Assembly (NCBI GenBank): GCA_946539475.1
Contig: CAMNHM010000117.1
Coordinates: 1-8,389 of the forward strand
Reading direction: 5' to 3'
Length of the DNA: 8,389 nt
From: an uncultured Prevotellaceae bacterium
Lineage (GTDB): Bacteria > Bacteroidota > Bacteroidia > Bacteroidales > Bacteroidaceae
How positions within the stretch are numbered: the stretch's first letter is position 1; each line of letters starts with the position of its first letter. The notes below the pieces were generated by a model, which did not search any database, was not told where the DNA came from, and worked only from the letters and a program-made list of their open reading frames with translations. Positions 621 to 8,355 of the stretch are shown piece after piece. The position numbers and the translations under genes were made by a program.

Positions 621-1118
621 TCATGCGTAGTTCAGCAGAGCCTGACGGACGGCTTTGCGGGCGGCACCGAGACGGTGCTCCACGCTCTTGTAGCCCTCAC
701 CGAGGCGCTGGGAGATCTCGCTGACCTTCATGCCGCCGTAGATGTGGAGGCGGTAGACCCGGCGGCTGCTTTCGGGCAGACGGGCAAGGCTGCGCTCCAG
801 GCGCTCGGTAATCTCGCGGATGCTGAGTACCGACTCGGCAGAATCGGCGGTTTCATCGGTGTTTTTCAGATAGTGTTCGTAGGTTTCGATGGTGTGTCGG
901 CGACGGTAGTAGTCGGCGATCAGGTGTCGGGCCGTGGTGTAGGCCAGTGCGGGCAGGGTGACGTCGGTGATCATCTTGCCCGACGTAAGAAGGCGGAGGA
1001 AGACATCCTGTACGATGTCCTCCGCCTCTACGCCTCCGCGAAGACGGCTGCTGACGTAGGCCAGCAGCTCGTCGCGGTGGCTGCTATAATAGTTGATTAA
1101 TAAGTTGGTCTCACTCAT
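621..1118 (-). CDS. ECF-type RNA polymerase sigma factor
   Basis: This 165-residue protein has the two-domain layout of extracytoplasmic-function sigma factors. Region 2 spans about residues 9-75, with AEDIVQDVFLRLL (32-44) and ARHLIADYYRRR (63-74), the -10-recognition helix area. Region 4 spans about 106-162, beginning LARLPESSRRVYRLH and continuing through a helix-turn-helix (VSEISQRLGEGYKSVEHRL). Length is normal for the family. The ATG (1118-1116) lies inside the end of the GH43 gene: the two overlap by 8 bp, which implies translational coupling and places the sigma factor last in the symporter-xylanase-xylosidase operon. No FecR-type or other anti-sigma factor is visible. Bacteroidota ECF factors usually pair with an anti-sigma factor and SusCD genes, so a lone one coupled to a catabolic enzyme is uncommon. 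Its target promoters cannot be read from the window. Confidence 0.9.
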   Translation of the reverse strand: MSETNLLINYYSSHRDELLAYVSSRLRGGVEAEDIVQDVFLRLLTSGKMITDVTLPALAYTTARHLIADYYRRRHTIETYEHYLKNTDETADSAESVLSIREITERLERSLARLPESSRRVYRLHIYGGMKVSEISQRLGEGYKSVEHRLGAARKAVRQALLNYA

Positions 1119-2115
1119 TCACTACCTTTTGGATCGTGCCGTCCTCATTGTAGAACAGGCGCTGCACCTTCAGCGAGCGCAGGTGGGTAATGCCGTTGGA
1201 GGGTACGCAGTCGTGGTAGAAGAGGAACCACTCGCCCTTGTACTGCAGGATGCTGTGGTGGGTGGTCCAGCCCACGACGGGGTCGAGGATGACGCCCTGA
1301 TAGGTGAACGGTCCGTAGGGATTGTCGCCGATGGCATAGCAGAGCAGGTGGCTGTCGCCAGTGGAGTAGCTGAAGTAGTACTTGCCATTGTACTTGTGCA
1401 TCCACGATGCCTCGAAGAAGCGGTGGGGATCGCCGGCCTTCAGCGGCTGTCCGTCCTTGTCGACGACGAGCACGCTGCGGGGTGCTTCGGCAAACTGCAT
1501 CACGTCGTCGCTCAGACGGGCCACGAAGCTGGGCAGGGCAGGCACGTCGGCAGGGGCATAGAGCTGGGTCTTGCGGTCACCGGCAGGGCCGAGGTCGACA
1601 CCGCCTTCCTTGACCAGCTGCTGCGGAGCCTGGTACCACTGGAGCTGTCCGCCCCAGAGTCCACCGAAGTAGACATAGATCTGGCCGTCGTCATCCTTGA
1701 ACACGCTGGGGTCGATGCTCATCGATCCGCGGATGGGGTGCTCCTGAGGGATGAAGGGGCCTTCGGGCTTGTCGGCGACAGCCACGCCGAGGTGGAACAC
1801 GCCGTTGTAGTCCTTGGCAGAGAAGATGAGGTAGTACTTGCCGTCCTTCTCGACGACGTCGTTGTCCCACATCTGTTTCTCAGCCCATGCCACCTGACTG
1901 ACGTCGAGGATCATGCCGTGGTCGGTCACCTCGCCGTTCTCCACATCGTCGAGGGAGAGCACGTGGTAGTCTTTCATCTGGAAGTGTCCGCCATCATCGT
2001 CGAAGGCAGCACCAGCCTCCCAGTCGTGTGAGGGATAGACATAGATACGTCCGTTAAACACATTGGCAGAGGGGTCTGCCATATAGTCACTCGGGAAAAG
2101 ATAACGCGGTTTCAT
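1111..2115 (-). CDS. xynB: GH43 beta-xylosidase / alpha-L-arabinofuranosidase, cytoplasmic
   Basis: This 334-residue protein is a single five-bladed propeller glycoside hydrolase of family 43, probably the GH43_1 type. The three expected catalytic acids are visible: D14 in YMADPSANVF (general base), D135 in SMSIDPSVFKD (pKa modulator) and E235 in HRFFEASWMHK (general acid). GWTTHHSIL (282-290) carries the conserved active-site histidine. There is no signal peptide, so it should act in the cytoplasm on imported xylo- or arabinoxylo-oligosaccharides. The gene order symporter-GH10-GH43 resembles xynD-xynA-xynB of Prevotella bryantii, which is the reason for the symbol. The start at 2115 is secure because the spacer upstream is a repeat array containing stops. 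The gene overlaps the sigma-factor start by 8 bp. Sequence alone does not separate xylosidase from arabinofuranosidase activity. Confidence 0.9.
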   Translation of the reverse strand: MKPRYLFPSDYMADPSANVFNGRIYVYPSHDWEAGAAFDDDGGHFQMKDYHVLSLDDVENGEVTDHGMILDVSQVAWAEKQMWDNDVVEKDGKYYLIFSAKDYNGVFHLGVAVADKPEGPFIPQEHPIRGSMSIDPSVFKDDDGQIYVYFGGLWGGQLQWYQAPQQLVKEGGVDLGPAGDRKTQLYAPADVPALPSFVARLSDDVMQFAEAPRSVLVVDKDGQPLKAGDPHRFFEASWMHKYNGKYYFSYSTGDSHLLCYAIGDNPYGPFTYQGVILDPVVGWTTHHSILQYKGEWFLFYHDCVPSNGITHLRSLKVQRLFYNEDGTIQKVVNE

Positions 2116-2155
2116 ACTGTAAACTATAAACTGTAAACTATAAACTGTAAACTAT
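2116..2155. repeat. Tandem 7-bp array (RTAAACT) between the GH10 and GH43 genes
   Basis: On the plus strand the units GTAAACT and ATAAACT alternate, giving five heptamers, also readable as a 14-bp unit present about 2.8 times. The array fills the whole 36-bp gap and includes the TAG stop of the GH10 gene (2154-2152). It therefore sits exactly where ribosomes must leave the GH10 gene and initiate on the GH43 gene, and it abuts the GH43 ATG. Copy-number change would alter this spacing without touching either protein. Confidence 0.9.
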
Positions 2156-3264
2156 CTGTAGAGATTGATGATGTCCTGTAGGACAGGCTTCTCGCCGTAG
2201 CAGCGGTCGAAGAGCACGCCATAGTTGGTGCGGCCATGCACGGGGAAGTCGTTGAGCCACGAGTTGGCATCGCTGATGCCCCAGAGGGTGACGCGGCTGA
2301 TCTGTGAACGGTGCTTATGGTAGATCTTGAAGAACTGCATCCATCGGTCGTTCACCTTCTTGGCCATGTCGGCAGGCAGTCCGGCAGTATAGGGATTATA
2401 CTTCTGCTTCAGCTCGAAATTCTGGTTGATGTCAGCCCCGCTGAAGCCCTCGGGATTGGGCAGCACGTTGAGGTCGAGTTCGGTAATCATCACCTTGACG
2501 CCACAGGCGGCGAAGGCATCGATGCTCTTCTCATACTCCGTCAGGTCGGGGTAGTCCATGCCATTGTGGCTCTGCATGCCCACGCCGTCGATGCGCAGGC
2601 CCTTGGCCTTGAGGTTCTTCACCAGACGGCAGACGGCCTCGCGCTTGCCAGGCTTCGACATCGAGTAGTCATTATAGTACAATTCCATATTGGGGTCGGC
2701 CTCATGGGCAGCACGGAAGGCAATCTCGATGAACTCCTCGCCGAGGATCTTGTAAAGGGGCGACTGGCGCCAGGAGCCGTCGTCCTCGATGGCCTCGTTG
2801 ACCACGTCCCAGCCGTGAATCTGGCCTTTGTAGTGTCCTACGACGGTGGCGATATGCTTCTCGAGACGGCTTTTCAGCACCTCCTTGGATACAGGCCGTC
2901 CCCAGCTGTCGGTGAACATCCAGTCGGGTGCCTGCGAATGCCAGCAGAGGTTATGGCCGATGATGGTCAGACCGTTCTGCTTGCAGTAATTGACAAACTT
3001 ATCGGCCACGCGGAAGTCGAAGATTCCCTCAGCGGGCTGGAGCACCTCCATCTTCATACAGTTCTCGGCAGTGGCACAGTTGAAGTGCTTCCTGACGACG
3101 GCAGTGGCTGCTGCGTCCTGTCCGTCGGACTGCCACTGATTGAGCGATGTGCCGATCAGGAAATGTTTTCCCACTGCATCCTTCAGTCCACCCTGGGCAA
3201 GGGCGGGGGATGCGCCCAAGAGTGCAAATAGTATGCACAATACGTTGCTTGCTTTTTTTCTCAT
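2152..3264 (-). CDS. xynA: GH10 endo-1,4-beta-xylanase, secreted
   Basis: The product is 370 residues, a single GH10 (beta/alpha)8 barrel with no carbohydrate-binding module. It begins with a signal peptide (about residues 1-23, cleavage after ALA before QGG), so it works outside the cytoplasm; no lipobox is seen. The acid/base glutamate is E157 in GWDVVNEAI and the nucleophile is E262 in MITELDLNVLP. H109 in LCWHSQ and the tryptophans of TLWGISDANSWL (326-337) are the usual substrate-cleft residues. In the FN-x-ATAEN segment (61-70), C63 and C69 replace residues that are more often non-cysteine. It would cut the xylan backbone to oligosaccharides for the adjacent symporter and the GH43 enzyme. 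The gene lies 26 bp after the symporter stop and 36 bp before the GH43 start. The symbol follows the Prevotella bryantii cluster. Confidence 0.95.
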   Translation of the reverse strand: MRKKASNVLCILFALLGASPALAQGGLKDAVGKHFLIGTSLNQWQSDGQDAAATAVVRKHFNCATAENCMKMEVLQPAEGIFDFRVADKFVNYCKQNGLTIIGHNLCWHSQAPDWMFTDSWGRPVSKEVLKSRLEKHIATVVGHYKGQIHGWDVVNEAIEDDGSWRQSPLYKILGEEFIEIAFRAAHEADPNMELYYNDYSMSKPGKREAVCRLVKNLKAKGLRIDGVGMQSHNGMDYPDLTEYEKSIDAFAACGVKVMITELDLNVLPNPEGFSGADINQNFELKQKYNPYTAGLPADMAKKVNDRWMQFFKIYHKHRSQISRVTLWGISDANSWLNDFPVHGRTNYGVLFDRCYGEKPVLQDIINLYR

Positions 3265-3290: not shown

Positions 3291-4745
3291 TTATAAAGTT
3301 ATCTCGTCGCTGTCAGCAGCACGGCGGCGTGCAGTCAGTTCAGCTTGCATTTTCTCATTGAATTCCTTGGTGATGGGGTAGAAATAGAGTGCTATCACGC
3401 CTACGCCGAAGAGCACGGCGGGGATGATGCTCGATGCCAGGCGGATACCCTCCATGGCGCTCTCGTTCTGGACGGCCACGTTGCCCGACTGATAGCCGAA
3501 GGCCGAGATGATGATGCCTGCCAGGGCGCCGCCCAGGCCGAGGCCCACCTTGAGGGCCATCACGATGCCCGAGAAGCAGAAGCCGGTGGCACGGCGATAG
3601 TTCTCATACTCGATATGGTCGGCCACGTCGCCAATCATCGCCCAGAGCAGTGGGACGGTGGGGGCATAGGCCAGCGACTTCATGAAGTTCAGCGCAAAGA
3701 GCAGGCTGACATCAGTAGGCGAGGGGATATAGAAGAGGGCTGTGAAGAAGGTGGTGAGCGACAGGCACACCATGAACACTTTCTTCTTGCCGTACTTGTT
3801 GGCTAAATAACGGGACAATAGTATCACGCCGAGGAACTGGACGATGGCTCCCATCATATTGAATACGGAGAAGCCGACGGAATAGGCCTCGCTGACATTG
3901 TCGCATAAGCCGAAGAAATGGAGGAAGTCGTAGAGCGACTTCTGGTCGACGTTGTACTGGAAGTAGAAACTCATGGCCGACCCCCATACCGCCAGGGTGA
4001 TGAAGAGCGAGAAGGTGAGTAGGAACATGGCCGTCCAGGGCAGGTTGGAGATGGTGTTCTTCACATCCTCCATGATGCTCGTCTCCTGCTTGGGAGGTGG
4101 CTGGATGCGCTCACGACTGATGCTGAACGTGATGAGGAAGAACACGAGGGCAATCACGGCAAAGACAGAGACGGTGCATAGCCAGCCGTGCTGGAGGTCG
4201 CCTTGTCCGAAGTGGTCTACCAACGGCAGGGTGAGTCCCTGAACGACGAATTGGGCGATGGTGACGGCAATGAAGCGTATCGTGGTGATGTTGGTGCGCT
4301 CCTTGATGTCGCTCGTGATGACGCCTCCTAAAGATGTGTAAGGTATATTATTAAAAGAGTACGCGACGAGCAGCAGCACGTAGGACACCGTGGCATAGGT
4401 GGCTACCTGAGCCTTCTCCTGTATGCCGGGATTGTAGAAAGCGAGTACGTAGAATACGGCAAAGGGTACTGCCGTCCAGAGGACCCAGGGCCGGAACTTG
4501 CCCCATCGCGTGTTGGTATGGTCAGCCAGGATGCCTACGGTGGGGTCGATGATCGCAGCCACCACGCAGGCGATGAGCAATACGCTGCCAGCCACAGCAC
4601 CGTCGAGTCCGAACACGTCGGTGTAGAACTTCAGCTGGAAGATCATCATCATCTGGAACGCCAGGTTGGCACCGGCATCTCCCAGTGAGTAGCCAATCTT
4701 CTCGCGCAATGATATCTGCTGTGACTTTTTGTTATTGATAATCAT
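3291..4745 (-). CDS. xynD: GPH-family (MFS) xylo-oligosaccharide:cation symporter, usual helix order
   Basis: This 484-residue inner-membrane protein has about 12 hydrophobic segments. GPH signatures are present: D67-P68 followed by the helix 2-3 loop ADHTNTRWGKFRPW (74-87), and NNIPYTSLGG after helix 4. The cytoplasmic SRERIQPPPKQ loop comes after helix 6, the KYGKKKVF loop between helices 8 and 9, and the GDVADHIEYENYRRATG loop between helices 10 and 11. The order is the family norm. It should import xylo-oligosaccharides with Na+ or H+; the exact substrate is inferred from neighbours. It is the first gene of the leftward operon. A TACCTTTG -7 box ends four bases before the ATG, so the message may be leaderless; the alternative is a TTG start at codon 13 (ISLREKIGY region). 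The extra loop DFLHFFGLCDNVSEAY between helices 7 and 8 looks like a small insertion. Confidence 0.92.
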   Translation of the reverse strand: MIINNKKSQQISLREKIGYSLGDAGANLAFQMMMIFQLKFYTDVFGLDGAVAGSVLLIACVVAAIIDPTVGILADHTNTRWGKFRPWVLWTAVPFAVFYVLAFYNPGIQEKAQVATYATVSYVLLLVAYSFNNIPYTSLGGVITSDIKERTNITTIRFIAVTIAQFVVQGLTLPLVDHFGQGDLQHGWLCTVSVFAVIALVFFLITFSISRERIQPPPKQETSIMEDVKNTISNLPWTAMFLLTFSLFITLAVWGSAMSFYFQYNVDQKSLYDFLHFFGLCDNVSEAYSVGFSVFNMMGAIVQFLGVILLSRYLANKYGKKKVFMVCLSLTTFFTALFYIPSPTDVSLLFALNFMKSLAYAPTVPLLWAMIGDVADHIEYENYRRATGFCFSGIVMALKVGLGLGGALAGIIISAFGYQSGNVAVQNESAMEGIRLASSIIPAVLFGVGVIALYFYPITKEFNEKMQAELTARRRAADSDEITL

Positions 4746-4911: not shown

Positions 4912-6933
4912 ATGAAGAAAATTCTTTTTATCATCGCCTCGTTGCTGCTCGCCTCGGCCACCGAAGCCAAGGTCGTACTGCCCCAGCTGTTCCAGTCGGG
5001 GATGGTCATGCAGCGCGGTAAGTCCATACCCGTCTGGGGATGGGCCGACAAGGGCGAGCAGGTGTCCATCCAGTTCAACAAGAAACAGTATTCAACCATT
5101 GCCGACGAGCAGGGCCGCTGGCGCATCGACCTGCCGAAGATGAAGGCCGGAGGGCCGTATATAATAGAGGTGAGAGGTGAGGGGCAAGAGGTGAGAGAAA
5201 TCACCGACGTGCTCATCGGCGACGTGTGGCTCTGTTCAGGACAGTCGAACATCGATGTCCATATCGAGAGGGTCTATCCCCAATATGTGCAGGAGATTGA
5301 CAGTTACGAGAATCCCCAGATCCGCCTTTTCCGGGTACAGAACGACACTGATACTCACGGCCCCAAGAGCGACATCATGCCGACAGCCATCAACTGGAAG
5401 CCGCTGACGAAGCAGAATGCCTGGCCATTCTCTGCCGTGGGCTATTTCCTGGGCAAGCGTATGTACGAAAAGACGAAGGTGCCCCAGGGCATCATCGTCA
5501 ATAGCTGGGGCGGCACGCCCATCGAGGCCTGGATATCAGCCGACTCGTTGCGGCAAGACTATCCCATGCTGCTCAAGCGCACGGAGATGATGCAGAGCGA
5601 CAAATATGTGGAAGCGCAAAGGCAGGCCAATGCCTTCGCATCGCAGCAGTGGCAGCAGATACTCGACGGCAGCGACCCAGGGCTACCCCCCTCTTCCTCC
5701 CCCCAAAATGGGGGGAGAATTGGGGGGTGGACGGCCGCCAACTACGATGACAGCCAGTGGCAGACCATCGACCAGGACGGCTGGCAGTGGCGTGGCTGCG
5801 GCACCGTATGGCTCCGTCAGCACATACAGATAGACCAGGCCCATGCCAGCAAACCTGCCCGGCTGTTGCTCGGCACCCTTTTCGACCAGGATGTCACCTA
5901 CGTCAACGGGCGCGAGGTGGGACATACCTACTATCAGTACCCTCCGCGTCGCTATGACCTGCCCGAAGGACTGCTCCGCGAGGGCGACAATGTGATAACC
6001 ATTCGCTTTATCAACAAATACGGTGCTGTGCATTTCATTCCCCAAAAGCCCTACCTGATCGCCTTCGGTGACGACCGTTTCTCGCAGAACCCGATGCCGA
6101 AGGACATCATACCTCTCGGCAAGACGTGGAAGATGCACGTCGGTGCCGAGATGCCGGGTTGTCCCAGTGGCGATGTCTCCTTGCAGAACCTGCCTACGAC
6201 GCTCTACAATGCCGTCGTCCATCCCCTGGCTCCCTATGCCGTCAATGGTGTGGTGTGGTATCAGGGGGAGTCGAACACAGGCAACCCTGCTCCCTATGCC
6301 GACTATCTCAGGAAGATGATGGGTTGCTGGCGTGACCTCTGGCACGATCAGCAGATGCCTTTCACCATCGTTCAGCTGGCCAATCACGACGGGCGTCAGC
6401 AGACGGGCAATCCGCAACCCCTCACGCCACAGACGGAACCCGTGAGAAGCGGATGGGCACAACTCCGTGAGGCCCAGCGCCTCGTGGCGAAGGCAGACCC
6501 ATGGGCAGAACTGGCCGTCATCAACGACTTGGGAGAGAGTGTCGACATCCATCCCCTGCGCAAGAAAGAGGTGGCCGAGCGCATCGGCCTCTGCTTTGAC
6601 CGCCTCGTATATAATAATAAGGTGAAGCTATCGCCGGAGGTCGTGTCGGCTGAGGTGAAGGACGGTAAGATAATCCTTACCCTCGACCAGCCCATCCAGT
6701 CTGGTGAGCTCTACGGTTTCGAGATTGCCGGAGACGACGGCAAATATCACAATGCCGCCGCATCATCAGACGGGAGCCGCATCAATGTTCAATGTTCAAT
6801 GTTCAATGTTCAATGTTCAATGTTCAATGTTCAATCTCTGCGCTACGCCTGGAAGGACGACCCTCAGCAGGCCAATGTCCGATCACTCAGCGGACTCCCC
6901 ATGTCATCGTTCGAATTAAAAATCAATCAATAA
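4912..6933 (+). CDS. Secreted SGNH/SASA-family carbohydrate acetylesterase
   Basis: The 673-residue product has a signal peptide (about residues 1-19, cleavage near TEA/K). It belongs to the sialate O-acetylesterase-like (SASA) group, whose members in xylan loci remove acetyl groups from xylan; this substrate is inferred from context. Residues 20-100 form a beta-rich N-terminal domain. The SGNH core follows: nucleophile S112 in LCSGQSN, WGGTPIEAW (199-207), VVWYQGESN (447-455), and D545/H547 in ESVDIHP. A jelly-roll-like domain (about 272-390) interrupts the core. The C-terminal motif LRYAWKDDP...GLPMSSFE (643-668) is the family's usual ending. The frame contains three unusual low-complexity stretches: residues 86-95, 259-272 and 625-641. 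It is the first gene of the rightward operon, with the next start 9 bp after its stop. CE20-like or CE6-like activity cannot be resolved by eye. Confidence 0.88.
   Translation: MKKILFIIASLLLASATEAKVVLPQLFQSGMVMQRGKSIPVWGWADKGEQVSIQFNKKQYSTIADEQGRWRIDLPKMKAGGPYIIEVRGEGQEVREITDVLIGDVWLCSGQSNIDVHIERVYPQYVQEIDSYENPQIRLFRVQNDTDTHGPKSDIMPTAINWKPLTKQNAWPFSAVGYFLGKRMYEKTKVPQGIIVNSWGGTPIEAWISADSLRQDYPMLLKRTEMMQSDKYVEAQRQANAFASQQWQQILDGSDPGLPPSSSPQNGGRIGGWTAANYDDSQWQTIDQDGWQWRGCGTVWLRQHIQIDQAHASKPARLLLGTLFDQDVTYVNGREVGHTYYQYPPRRYDLPEGLLREGDNVITIRFINKYGAVHFIPQKPYLIAFGDDRFSQNPMPKDIIPLGKTWKMHVGAEMPGCPSGDVSLQNLPTTLYNAVVHPLAPYAVNGVVWYQGESNTGNPAPYADYLRKMMGCWRDLWHDQQMPFTIVQLANHDGRQQTGNPQPLTPQTEPVRSGWAQLREAQRLVAKADPWAELAVINDLGESVDIHPLRKKEVAERIGLCFDRLVYNNKVKLSPEVVSAEVKDGKIILTLDQPIQSGELYGFEIAGDDGKYHNAAASSDGSRINVQCSMFNVQCSMFNVQSLRYAWKDDPQQANVRSLSGLPMSSFELKINQ
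5167..5194 (+). repeat. Short degenerate 7-bp array (GAGGTGA) inside the esterase gene
   Basis: Four consecutive heptamers read GAGGTGA, GAGGTGA, GGGGCAA, GAGGTGA, and a further GAG follows. They encode residues 86-94 of the esterase, just before the conserved VLIGDVWLCSGQSN segment. The purine-rich composition differs from the flanking codons. Confidence 0.55.
5685..5728. repeat. G/C-rich inverted-repeat element inside the esterase gene
   Basis: A strong imperfect hairpin. On the left, six Cs (5686-5691), TCTTCCT, and six Cs (5699-5704); the loop is AAAA; on the right, T, six Gs (5710-5715), AGAATT, six Gs (5722-5727) and T. It encodes the low-complexity residues PPSSSPQNGGRIGG, in the linker just before the jelly-roll-like insert domain. 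It resembles the C-run/G-run hairpin repeats I recall from intergenic regions of Prevotella and Bacteroides genomes, which suggests an in-frame insertion of a mobile or dispersed element. Confidence 0.75.
6783..6835 (+). repeat. Perfect 7-bp tandem array (CAATGTT)7 inside the esterase gene
   Basis: Seven identical copies of CAATGTT (6783-6831) are followed by a partial CAAT. Because 7 is not a multiple of 3, the array encodes a 7-residue peptide cycle (NVQCSMF) and all three forward frames are open through it. It covers residues 625-641, directly before the conserved C-terminal motif RYAWKDDP. Loss of one unit would end the protein at 6919; gain of one would extend it to 7214, inside the transporter gene. 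Confidence 0.95.
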
Positions 6934-6942
6934 ATAAGTATT

Positions 6943-8355
6943 ATGTCAACAACAAACGAAACGAAAGGCTTCTACAAGCTGTCATGGGTGCAGCGTATCG
7001 GCTTCGGTGCCGGCGACCTGGCCCAGAACCTCATCTATCAGACCATCTGTATGTACCTGCTGTTCTTCTACACCGATGTCTATGTGCTCGGTGGCGATGC
7101 AGCAAAGTCTGCCGGACTGGCAGGCACCATGTTCCTCGTGGTGCGACTCGTCGACGTGCTCTGGGATCCCCTCGTGGGCACCTTCGTCGACAAGCACAAC
7201 CCTGTTTGGGGTAAATACCGCAGCTACCTCGTCATGGGCGGTATCCCCCTGACCATCCTGGCCATCCTCTGTTTCTGGGACGGTTTTGCTCCCTCGCTCA
7301 TTTACGCCTATCTGACCTACGTGGGCATGTCGATGCTCTACACGCTGATCAATGTGCCCTACGGTGCCCTGAACTCCTCGCTGACACGCGACACCGACGA
7401 GATCACCATCCTCACCTCCGTCCGTATGTTCATGGCCAATGTGGGTGGTCTGGCCGTCTCGGCTGGTGTGCCCATCATCGTGGCCATCTTCGCCTCGTCG
7501 CAGACGCTGCCCATCGAGATGGCGCTCTTCATGGGTCTCGGTTCGCTGCCCTCGTTCATCTTCATGCCCCTCGTTCCGGCCATCAAGAAGAAGGTGGGCA
7601 AGAAGAATATGTTCTACATCTTCCTCAGCATCGCCATCATCGGTATGGCCCTGCTCTACGTGATCAGCAAGATGGGTACGGTGAAGGAGAACATCACGCT
7701 GGTGTACATCGCTCAGTTCATCAAGTCGACGGGTGTCATCGTGGCCACGGGTTACATGTGGGCTCTCATCCCCGAGGTGATCTCCTATGCTGAGTATACC
7801 ACGGGCCGTCGTATCGCCGGTATCGTGAACGCCCTGACGGGTATCTTCTTCAAGGCCGGTATGGCTCTGGGAGGCGTCGTTCCCGGACTGGTGCTTGCCA
7901 TGACCAACTATGTGCCTGCCGAGGAGGCCACCACACTGCCGAAGGACAGCAGCGCCTGGTTCTACACCATGCTGCTCTACTCGCTCGTCGGTCTGGCCCT
8001 GCTCATCTTCTGCTTCTCGCAGACCAAGGAGCGCGTCGTGATGGATGCTTCCGAAGCAGAGAATGTGAAGGTGAGTGACCTGTGGATGGAGTTCATGCGC
8101 AACCGTCCGCTGCGTATCATCGCCCTCTTCTTCATCACTGCCTTCGCCATGATGTCGGTGGGCAATGCTGCCGGTGCCTATTTCATGAACGACCTTGAGC
8201 TGCAGACACCGCTGGCTCAGGAGGGCATCCGCTGGCTCGTCTGCATCATTCCTGCTATCCTGCTGATCGTCGCTATGTTCATCATCTCGAAGTACGAACT
8301 GACTGACGAGGTGATCGACGACATCAACAAGAAGATTGAGGAGCGCAATAAGTAA
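6943..8355 (+). CDS. GPH-type sugar transporter with permuted helix blocks
   Basis: A 470-residue inner-membrane protein with about 12 hydrophobic segments, starting 9 bp after the esterase stop. The N-terminal part is normal for GPH symporters: D75-P76, the helix 2-3 loop VDKHNPVWGKYRSY (82-95), and LINVPYGALNSSLTRD (135-150). After helix 5 (to about residue 185) comes the block that normally forms helices 8-11: AIKKKVGKKN (213-222), MWALIPEVISYAEYTTGRR (272-290), and helix 11 to about 321. Only then come helix 6, the central loop CFSQTKERVVMDASEAENV (357-375) with NRPLR, and helix 7 (about 390-415). Helix 12 (428-449) ends the protein. The other GPH protein in this window has the standard order. 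Frame and codon use are uniform throughout. Substrate is inferred from context as oligosaccharide or pentoside. It could be functional, degenerate or an assembly artefact. Confidence 0.88.
   Translation: MSTTNETKGFYKLSWVQRIGFGAGDLAQNLIYQTICMYLLFFYTDVYVLGGDAAKSAGLAGTMFLVVRLVDVLWDPLVGTFVDKHNPVWGKYRSYLVMGGIPLTILAILCFWDGFAPSLIYAYLTYVGMSMLYTLINVPYGALNSSLTRDTDEITILTSVRMFMANVGGLAVSAGVPIIVAIFASSQTLPIEMALFMGLGSLPSFIFMPLVPAIKKKVGKKNMFYIFLSIAIIGMALLYVISKMGTVKENITLVYIAQFIKSTGVIVATGYMWALIPEVISYAEYTTGRRIAGIVNALTGIFFKAGMALGGVVPGLVLAMTNYVPAEEATTLPKDSSAWFYTMLLYSLVGLALLIFCFSQTKERVVMDASEAENVKVSDLWMEFMRNRPLRIIALFFITAFAMMSVGNAAGAYFMNDLELQTPLAQEGIRWLVCIIPAILLIVAMFIISKYELTDEVIDDINKKIEERNK

Follow-up and report, generated by a model that had tools for sequence, protein, structure and literature searches.

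Gene content of the locus

The window analysed here is the whole 8,389-nucleotide stretch of contig CAMNHM010000117.1, from an uncultured Prevotellaceae bacterium. Its minus strand carries genes for an ECF-type sigma factor, a GH43 glycosidase, a GH10 xylanase and a GPH-family transporter with the canonical order of helices; the plus strand carries a gene for a SASA-domain esterase and, beyond it, the gene that concerns us, which encodes a GPH/MFS transporter with a permuted order (Table 1). The latter open reading frame, at 6943-8355, encodes 470 residues (P0001) and is intact, its frame running unbroken through three junctions as the original prediction had it. The family profile PF13347 matches P0001 at 2.1e-87 (293.9 bits, cut-off 27).

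Table 1. Genes of the window and parts of the permuted transporter gene, by nucleotide position
Feature	Position	Strand	Remarks
GH43 glycosidase	1111..2115	-	
GH10 xylanase	2152..3264	-	
Canonical-order GPH paralog, about 30% identical to P0001	3291..4745	-	One full-length MFS_2 match
Carbohydrate esterase (SASA domain), upstream of the permuted gene on the same strand	4912..6933	+	
Block N, TM1-5 (residues 1-183), canonical position	6943..7491	+	79-81% identity to P0138/P0122; AlphaFold helices 15-183
Junction 1 (residues 184-190), TM5 to TM8, predicted periplasmic loop	7492..7512	+	AlphaFold model loops
Block A, TM8-11 (residues 191-320), precedes TM6-7	7513..7902	+	Block order and model helices
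Junction 2 (residues 321-335), TM11 to TM6, predicted periplasmic loop	7903..7947	+	AlphaFold model loops
Block B, TM6, central cytoplasmic loop and TM7 (residues 336-414), between TM11 and TM12	7948..8184	+	Block order and model helices
Junction 3 (residues 415-422), TM7 to TM12, predicted periplasmic loop	8185..8208	+	AlphaFold model loops
Block C, TM12, cytoplasmic tail and stop codon	8209..8355	+	ORF, AlphaFold, BLASTP

Two tandem repeats also lie in the window. A perfect 7-bp repeat in the esterase gene (TCAATGT, 7.7 copies, 6782-6835) encodes NVQCSMFNVQCSMFNVQ near the end; the homologs aligned at this place have unrelated sequence there, shorter by 4-6 residues, and three exact copies in a row are absent from the 234 fetched loci. 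Between the GH43 and GH10 genes, 2116-2155 holds 2.9 copies (100%) of the 14-bp repeat ACTGTAAACTATAA.

Block order and topology of P0001

Four blocks can be followed through the family: N (TM1-5), B (TM6, central loop and TM7), A (TM8-11) and C (TM12). Canonical relatives run N-B-A-C and P0001 runs N-A-B-C; for comparison P0001 was cut into N (residues 1-184), A (187-322), B (323-416) and C (417-470). In BLASTP, P0001 aligns to each of the canonical proteins P0122 and P0138 in four significant segments, with A and B exchanged. Against P0138, residues 2-184 of P0001 match 4-180 (79%, 7e-101), 187-374 match 280-471 (59%; block A and a weak extension), 312-468 match 168-314 (48%; block B and an extension) and 414-470 match 416-472 (63%). 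The segments score 80-300 bits, against a top score of 25.4 among 200 shuffled copies of P0001. The Pfam MFS_2 profile matches P0001 in three stretches, versus one in the neighbour at 3291-4745. The BLASTP segments and the AlphaFold helices thus bear out the helix order that had been read from the letters, 1-5, 8-11, 6-7, 12. The loops of the AlphaFold model fall where its junctions had been placed, and the short DNA similarities noticed between the junctions are present.

The positive-inside count (25 K/R close to inside loops against 4 close to outside ones) predicts that all three new loops are outside, in keeping with the periplasmic position first proposed. Together with the AlphaFold model it predicts twelve helices (a broken TM8 counted once), cytoplasmic ends and a central cytoplasmic loop; in the models of both P0001 and the canonical control, TM8 is split into short helices. 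Canonical helix order, by which GPH/MFS_2 membership would be judged, is absent from P0001, and our claim is therefore of a rearranged relative that would work like a GPH transporter.

Distribution of the permuted order

The original prediction treated the permuted order as a single oddity; it is instead widespread and common to hundreds of relatives. Of the 120 best matches listed out of 6758 (E <= 0.001), 119 read N-A-B-C and the remaining one, P0014, reads N-B-A-B-C. The best 80 of 276 named-genome loci (79-99% identity), taken with the window, hold 81 N-A-B-C ORFs. Permuted copies occur in the records of Prevotella aff. ruminicola Tc2-24, Prevotella sp. tf2-5, Segatella maculosa DSM 19339 and Segatella copri iA622, and another (L153) lies on a 3.3 Mb contig.

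Canonical relatives were searched for using the first 430 residues of P0014. The 240 proteins compared comprised 120 N-A-B-C, 114 N-B-A-C, four N-B-A-B-C and two shorter N-B-A proteins. Block by block, single canonical proteins share about 65-82% identity with P0001 and, in the case of P0138 and P0122, are of similar length. With each group represented by no more than 22 or 23 sequences, mean identities of blocks N, B, A and C are 76, 67, 72 and 67 when permuted group I is compared with the canonical group, close to the 78, 73, 78 and 74 found within the latter. The objection that close homologs might all share one linear order does not apply: close homologs are permuted, and block-by-block alignment finds a clear correspondence kept in the canonical relatives.

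Searched with the canonical query P0138 at 1e-50, 57 of 100 genus genomes were positive: 29 with a full-length canonical match (67-89%), 16 with the split pattern of group I, and 12 with a match ending at residue 177-181 (50-52%), a set in which all 12 loci read N-A-B-C and which constitutes group II. Matches of group II lie near the threshold, so some may have been missed among the 100. None of the 57 genomes falls into two of the three sets, and in none of them do canonical transporters of the P0138 and P0122 kind accompany a permuted group. A further canonical paralog (61-63%) is present in six of the 57: it accompanies group II in three and the closer canonical form in the other three. Two 62% canonical paralogs, L200 and L201 (G039:C163 and G026:C218), were reported with one TAA inside the match; their loci nonetheless hold 470-aa ORFs with all four blocks.

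In the family sample, P0001 has a collinear match at 1e-110 in 76 of 399 genomes, at 69-95% identity in 15 and at 41-46%, the level of group II, in 61; 75 of the matches are full-length, one (G661) is cut by the contig end, and none has an internal stop. Block order was checked by HMM for 30 of the 76 loci. These counts rule out a rare event, as group II rules out one narrow group. At the level of order, a group II query at 1e-60 found 5 of 295 genomes (four with group II, and G001), and a canonical query found 7 of 257, among them G001 as a split permuted match. The phylum sample (395 genomes, 1e-60) gave a full-length match only in the reference genome itself; a match in G1053 covers residues 3-184 only, and that gene is canonical in order. 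In total we collected 234 distinct N-A-B-C and 160 N-B-A-C proteins, leaving out 20 others (partial, split or N-B-A-B-C). The 394 sort into groups I (197), Ib (6) and II (31), canonical (147), distant canonical (7) and outgroup (6).

Gene neighbourhood

Canonical and permuted forms occupy one common xylan neighbourhood. Counting loci of at least 12 kb, which leaves out the shorter loci of group Ib, a GH43 gene lies within 7.5 kb in 69/70 group I, 11/11 group II and 21/21 canonical loci. It is found downstream on the transporter's strand, no more than 3.2 kb away, in 61/70, 10/11 and 18/21, respectively; GH10 is next downstream in 31/70, 8/11 and 16/21. In most relatives the focal transporter itself stands directly before the GH10/GH43 genes. 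In the window that place belongs to the canonical paralog at 3291-4745, not to the permuted gene. The window's layout of sigma factor, GH43, GPH paralog, esterase and focal transporter recurs at two canonical loci (L223, L225) and a permuted one (L007), where no GH10 was detected. Two distant-canonical loci of at least 8 kb, one of them L200, gave neither GH10 nor GH43.

A review (PMC8002723) describes a Prevotella xylan cluster of a transporter, XynD, with XynA and XynB. By position only, XynD can be likened to the focal transporter of most relatives, which likewise precedes GH10/GH43. A clean XynD-operon reading was dropped for the window because the canonical paralog holds the transporter's place there.

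A probable topology-preserving exchange of blocks

Very probably, a block swap with even helix numbers, which preserved topology, gave a working GPH-type MFS symporter that probably imports xylo-oligosaccharides. That the swap respects topology, as originally proposed, is upheld by the block correspondence and the predicted sides of the loops. In an ancestor, the segment TM6-central loop-TM7 would have exchanged places with TM8-11, the chain being cut in the periplasmic loops that follow TM5, TM7 and TM11. As first suggested, it may have come about by duplication plus deletion or by excision as a circle. Both moved blocks have an even number of helices and the three new junctions are predicted to be periplasmic, so that each helix would keep its direction. 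The chain could then pack into the usual two-domain bundle through the new connections TM5-TM8, TM11-TM6 and TM7-TM12. We infer transport, the xylo-oligosaccharide substrate and the usual docking of TM6-7 for the permuted protein.

Number of origins

The permutation may have arisen more than once, or the canonical order may have been regained; we regard this as possible, if on the doubtful side. It would fit the best maximum-likelihood tree with an outgroup, in which groups I and Ib and three canonical proteins form one clade (99/96) inside the canonical proteins, with group II outside. In that tree, however, the long branch of group II meets the long branch of the outgroup, and the test does not reject placing all permuted proteins in a single clade (p-AU 0.21 with the outgroup; 0.61 without it, where this clade also has the higher likelihood). 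One clade of I and Ib is likewise unrejected (p-AU 0.41 and 0.57). Block-wise trees were poorly resolved, and a first tree, needing two changes of order, was set aside because its branches were implausibly long under the mixture model. Junction 2 is partly alike in groups I and II, which argues against several origins: SEESTLPNDSG in P0121 and SEESALPTDPNA in L175 form a close pair across the two groups (P0001 has AEEATTLPKDS; Ib differs). Some canonical-type sequences (L132, P0155) have its LPxD part in their TM5-TM6 loop, so only the rest of the junction can argue for one origin.

Four proteins (P0014, P0155, P0158 and P0189; 559-565 aa) read N-B-A-B-C, with 14 predicted helices by block count. 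MFS transporters of 14 helices, for example DHA2, have one helix pair more than 12-TM members, and these four resemble them in the extra pair; they differ in that it is a second copy of TM6-7 placed after TM11 and in looking like canonical/permuted chimeras. Within the compared sample, the best matches of their N and first B are canonical proteins (88-95%, not counting the mutual match of P0155 and P0158). For the second B and C, permuted proteins match at 83-100% in P0014, P0158 and P0189, and at only 84% and 79% in P0155; the C of P0155 lies just as close to a canonical protein. The longest contigs that bear them measure 2.8-6.2 kb. A P0155 query gave a match at 1e-190 in 72 of 299 genus genomes, none extending past residue 419 of 561. 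Judged by these matches, canonical and permuted genes may have recombined naturally to give the four proteins, or may have been joined in assembly. Such forms would be the intermediates expected of a route by duplication and then deletion; we refuse them as proof of that route, as they look like chimeras and none was seen in the 299 genus genomes. A rather improbable extension would make the TM6-loop-TM7 hairpin a mobile two-helix module that moved between the TM5/TM8 and TM11/TM12 gaps more than once, with either order filling the same role and the 14-helix forms as real intermediates.

Fold of the permuted protein

It is unlikely that the permuted protein folds differently, with TM6-7 newly placed or the two blocks in each other's positions, and perhaps with a changed function. 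The AlphaFold pTM of P0001 (0.85) is on a par with that of the canonical control (0.83), and MelB is the best PDB match to P0001 by both sequence and structure. Superposed in sequence order on MelB (452 residues), the model covers 355 residues and the control 443; a superposition of this kind cannot place TM6-7 of P0001. The 355 residues would fit ten helices in place with TM6-7 out of chain order, whereas blocks in each other's places should let a sequential aligner cover nearly the whole chain. Block B has near-invariant residues that are alike in groups I and Ib and in the canonical group, if more diverged in II; this likeness and the neighbourhood shared by the two forms also argue against a different fold.

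Selection and integrity of the gene

The permuted gene is under purifying selection, with dN/dS of about 0.06-0.10. Medians are 0.10 for group I (1491 pairs, including Ib genes passing the N-block cut-off), 0.059 for group II (58 pairs) and 0.055 for the canonical group (247 pairs), from pairs with 0.15-0.62 synonymous differences per site, and are rough because dS medians are near 1.1. Of the stretches tested, constraint is weakest in the junction 2 region of group I (0.28). The group I value, about twice the canonical one, would suit a decaying or non-transporting relic, which the dN/dS values themselves, the full-length and stop-free family matches and the absence of a close canonical copy (1e-50) from all 16 group I genomes in the 100-genome genus sample make very improbable. 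An assembly artefact, a chimeric contig of the sort that the N-B-A-B-C proteins on short metagenomic contigs bring to mind, has practically no chance of explaining the order: misassembly, named from the outset as what would undo the finding, is excluded because the same order recurs in independent genomes (80 named loci of differing origin, strain genomes and a 3.3 Mb contig) and in the separate group II.

Relation to known systems and significance

All four blocks of P0001 are homologous to those of the MelB/GPH family (Pfam MFS_2, PF13347), from which it differs in having TM6-7 between TM11 and TM12 and in meeting the profile in pieces. That helix units were rearranged in the MFS has been proposed, and also disputed: the 'mix-and-match' view of Madej, Kaback and colleagues, that MFS proteins differ in the order of helix modules, stands against one of no rearrangement (PMC4889909, PMC3962082). 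Mix-and-match, as given there, compares distant proteins (LacY, FucP) in units of three helices; the present case has blocks of two and four helices in a different order between close relatives. A search of the open-licence PMC literature, outside which most subscription papers lie, found no report of a natural permuted MFS transporter.

The transporter is a natural, non-circular permutation between close relatives in one neighbourhood, with permuted copies in the genomes of named strains. Rearrangement of helix modules in the MFS thereby becomes testable by direct comparison. The permuted order warns against taking collinearity for granted in alignments, profiles and annotation, and it provides a natural test of how far the folding of a membrane protein depends on the order in which its helices are inserted.
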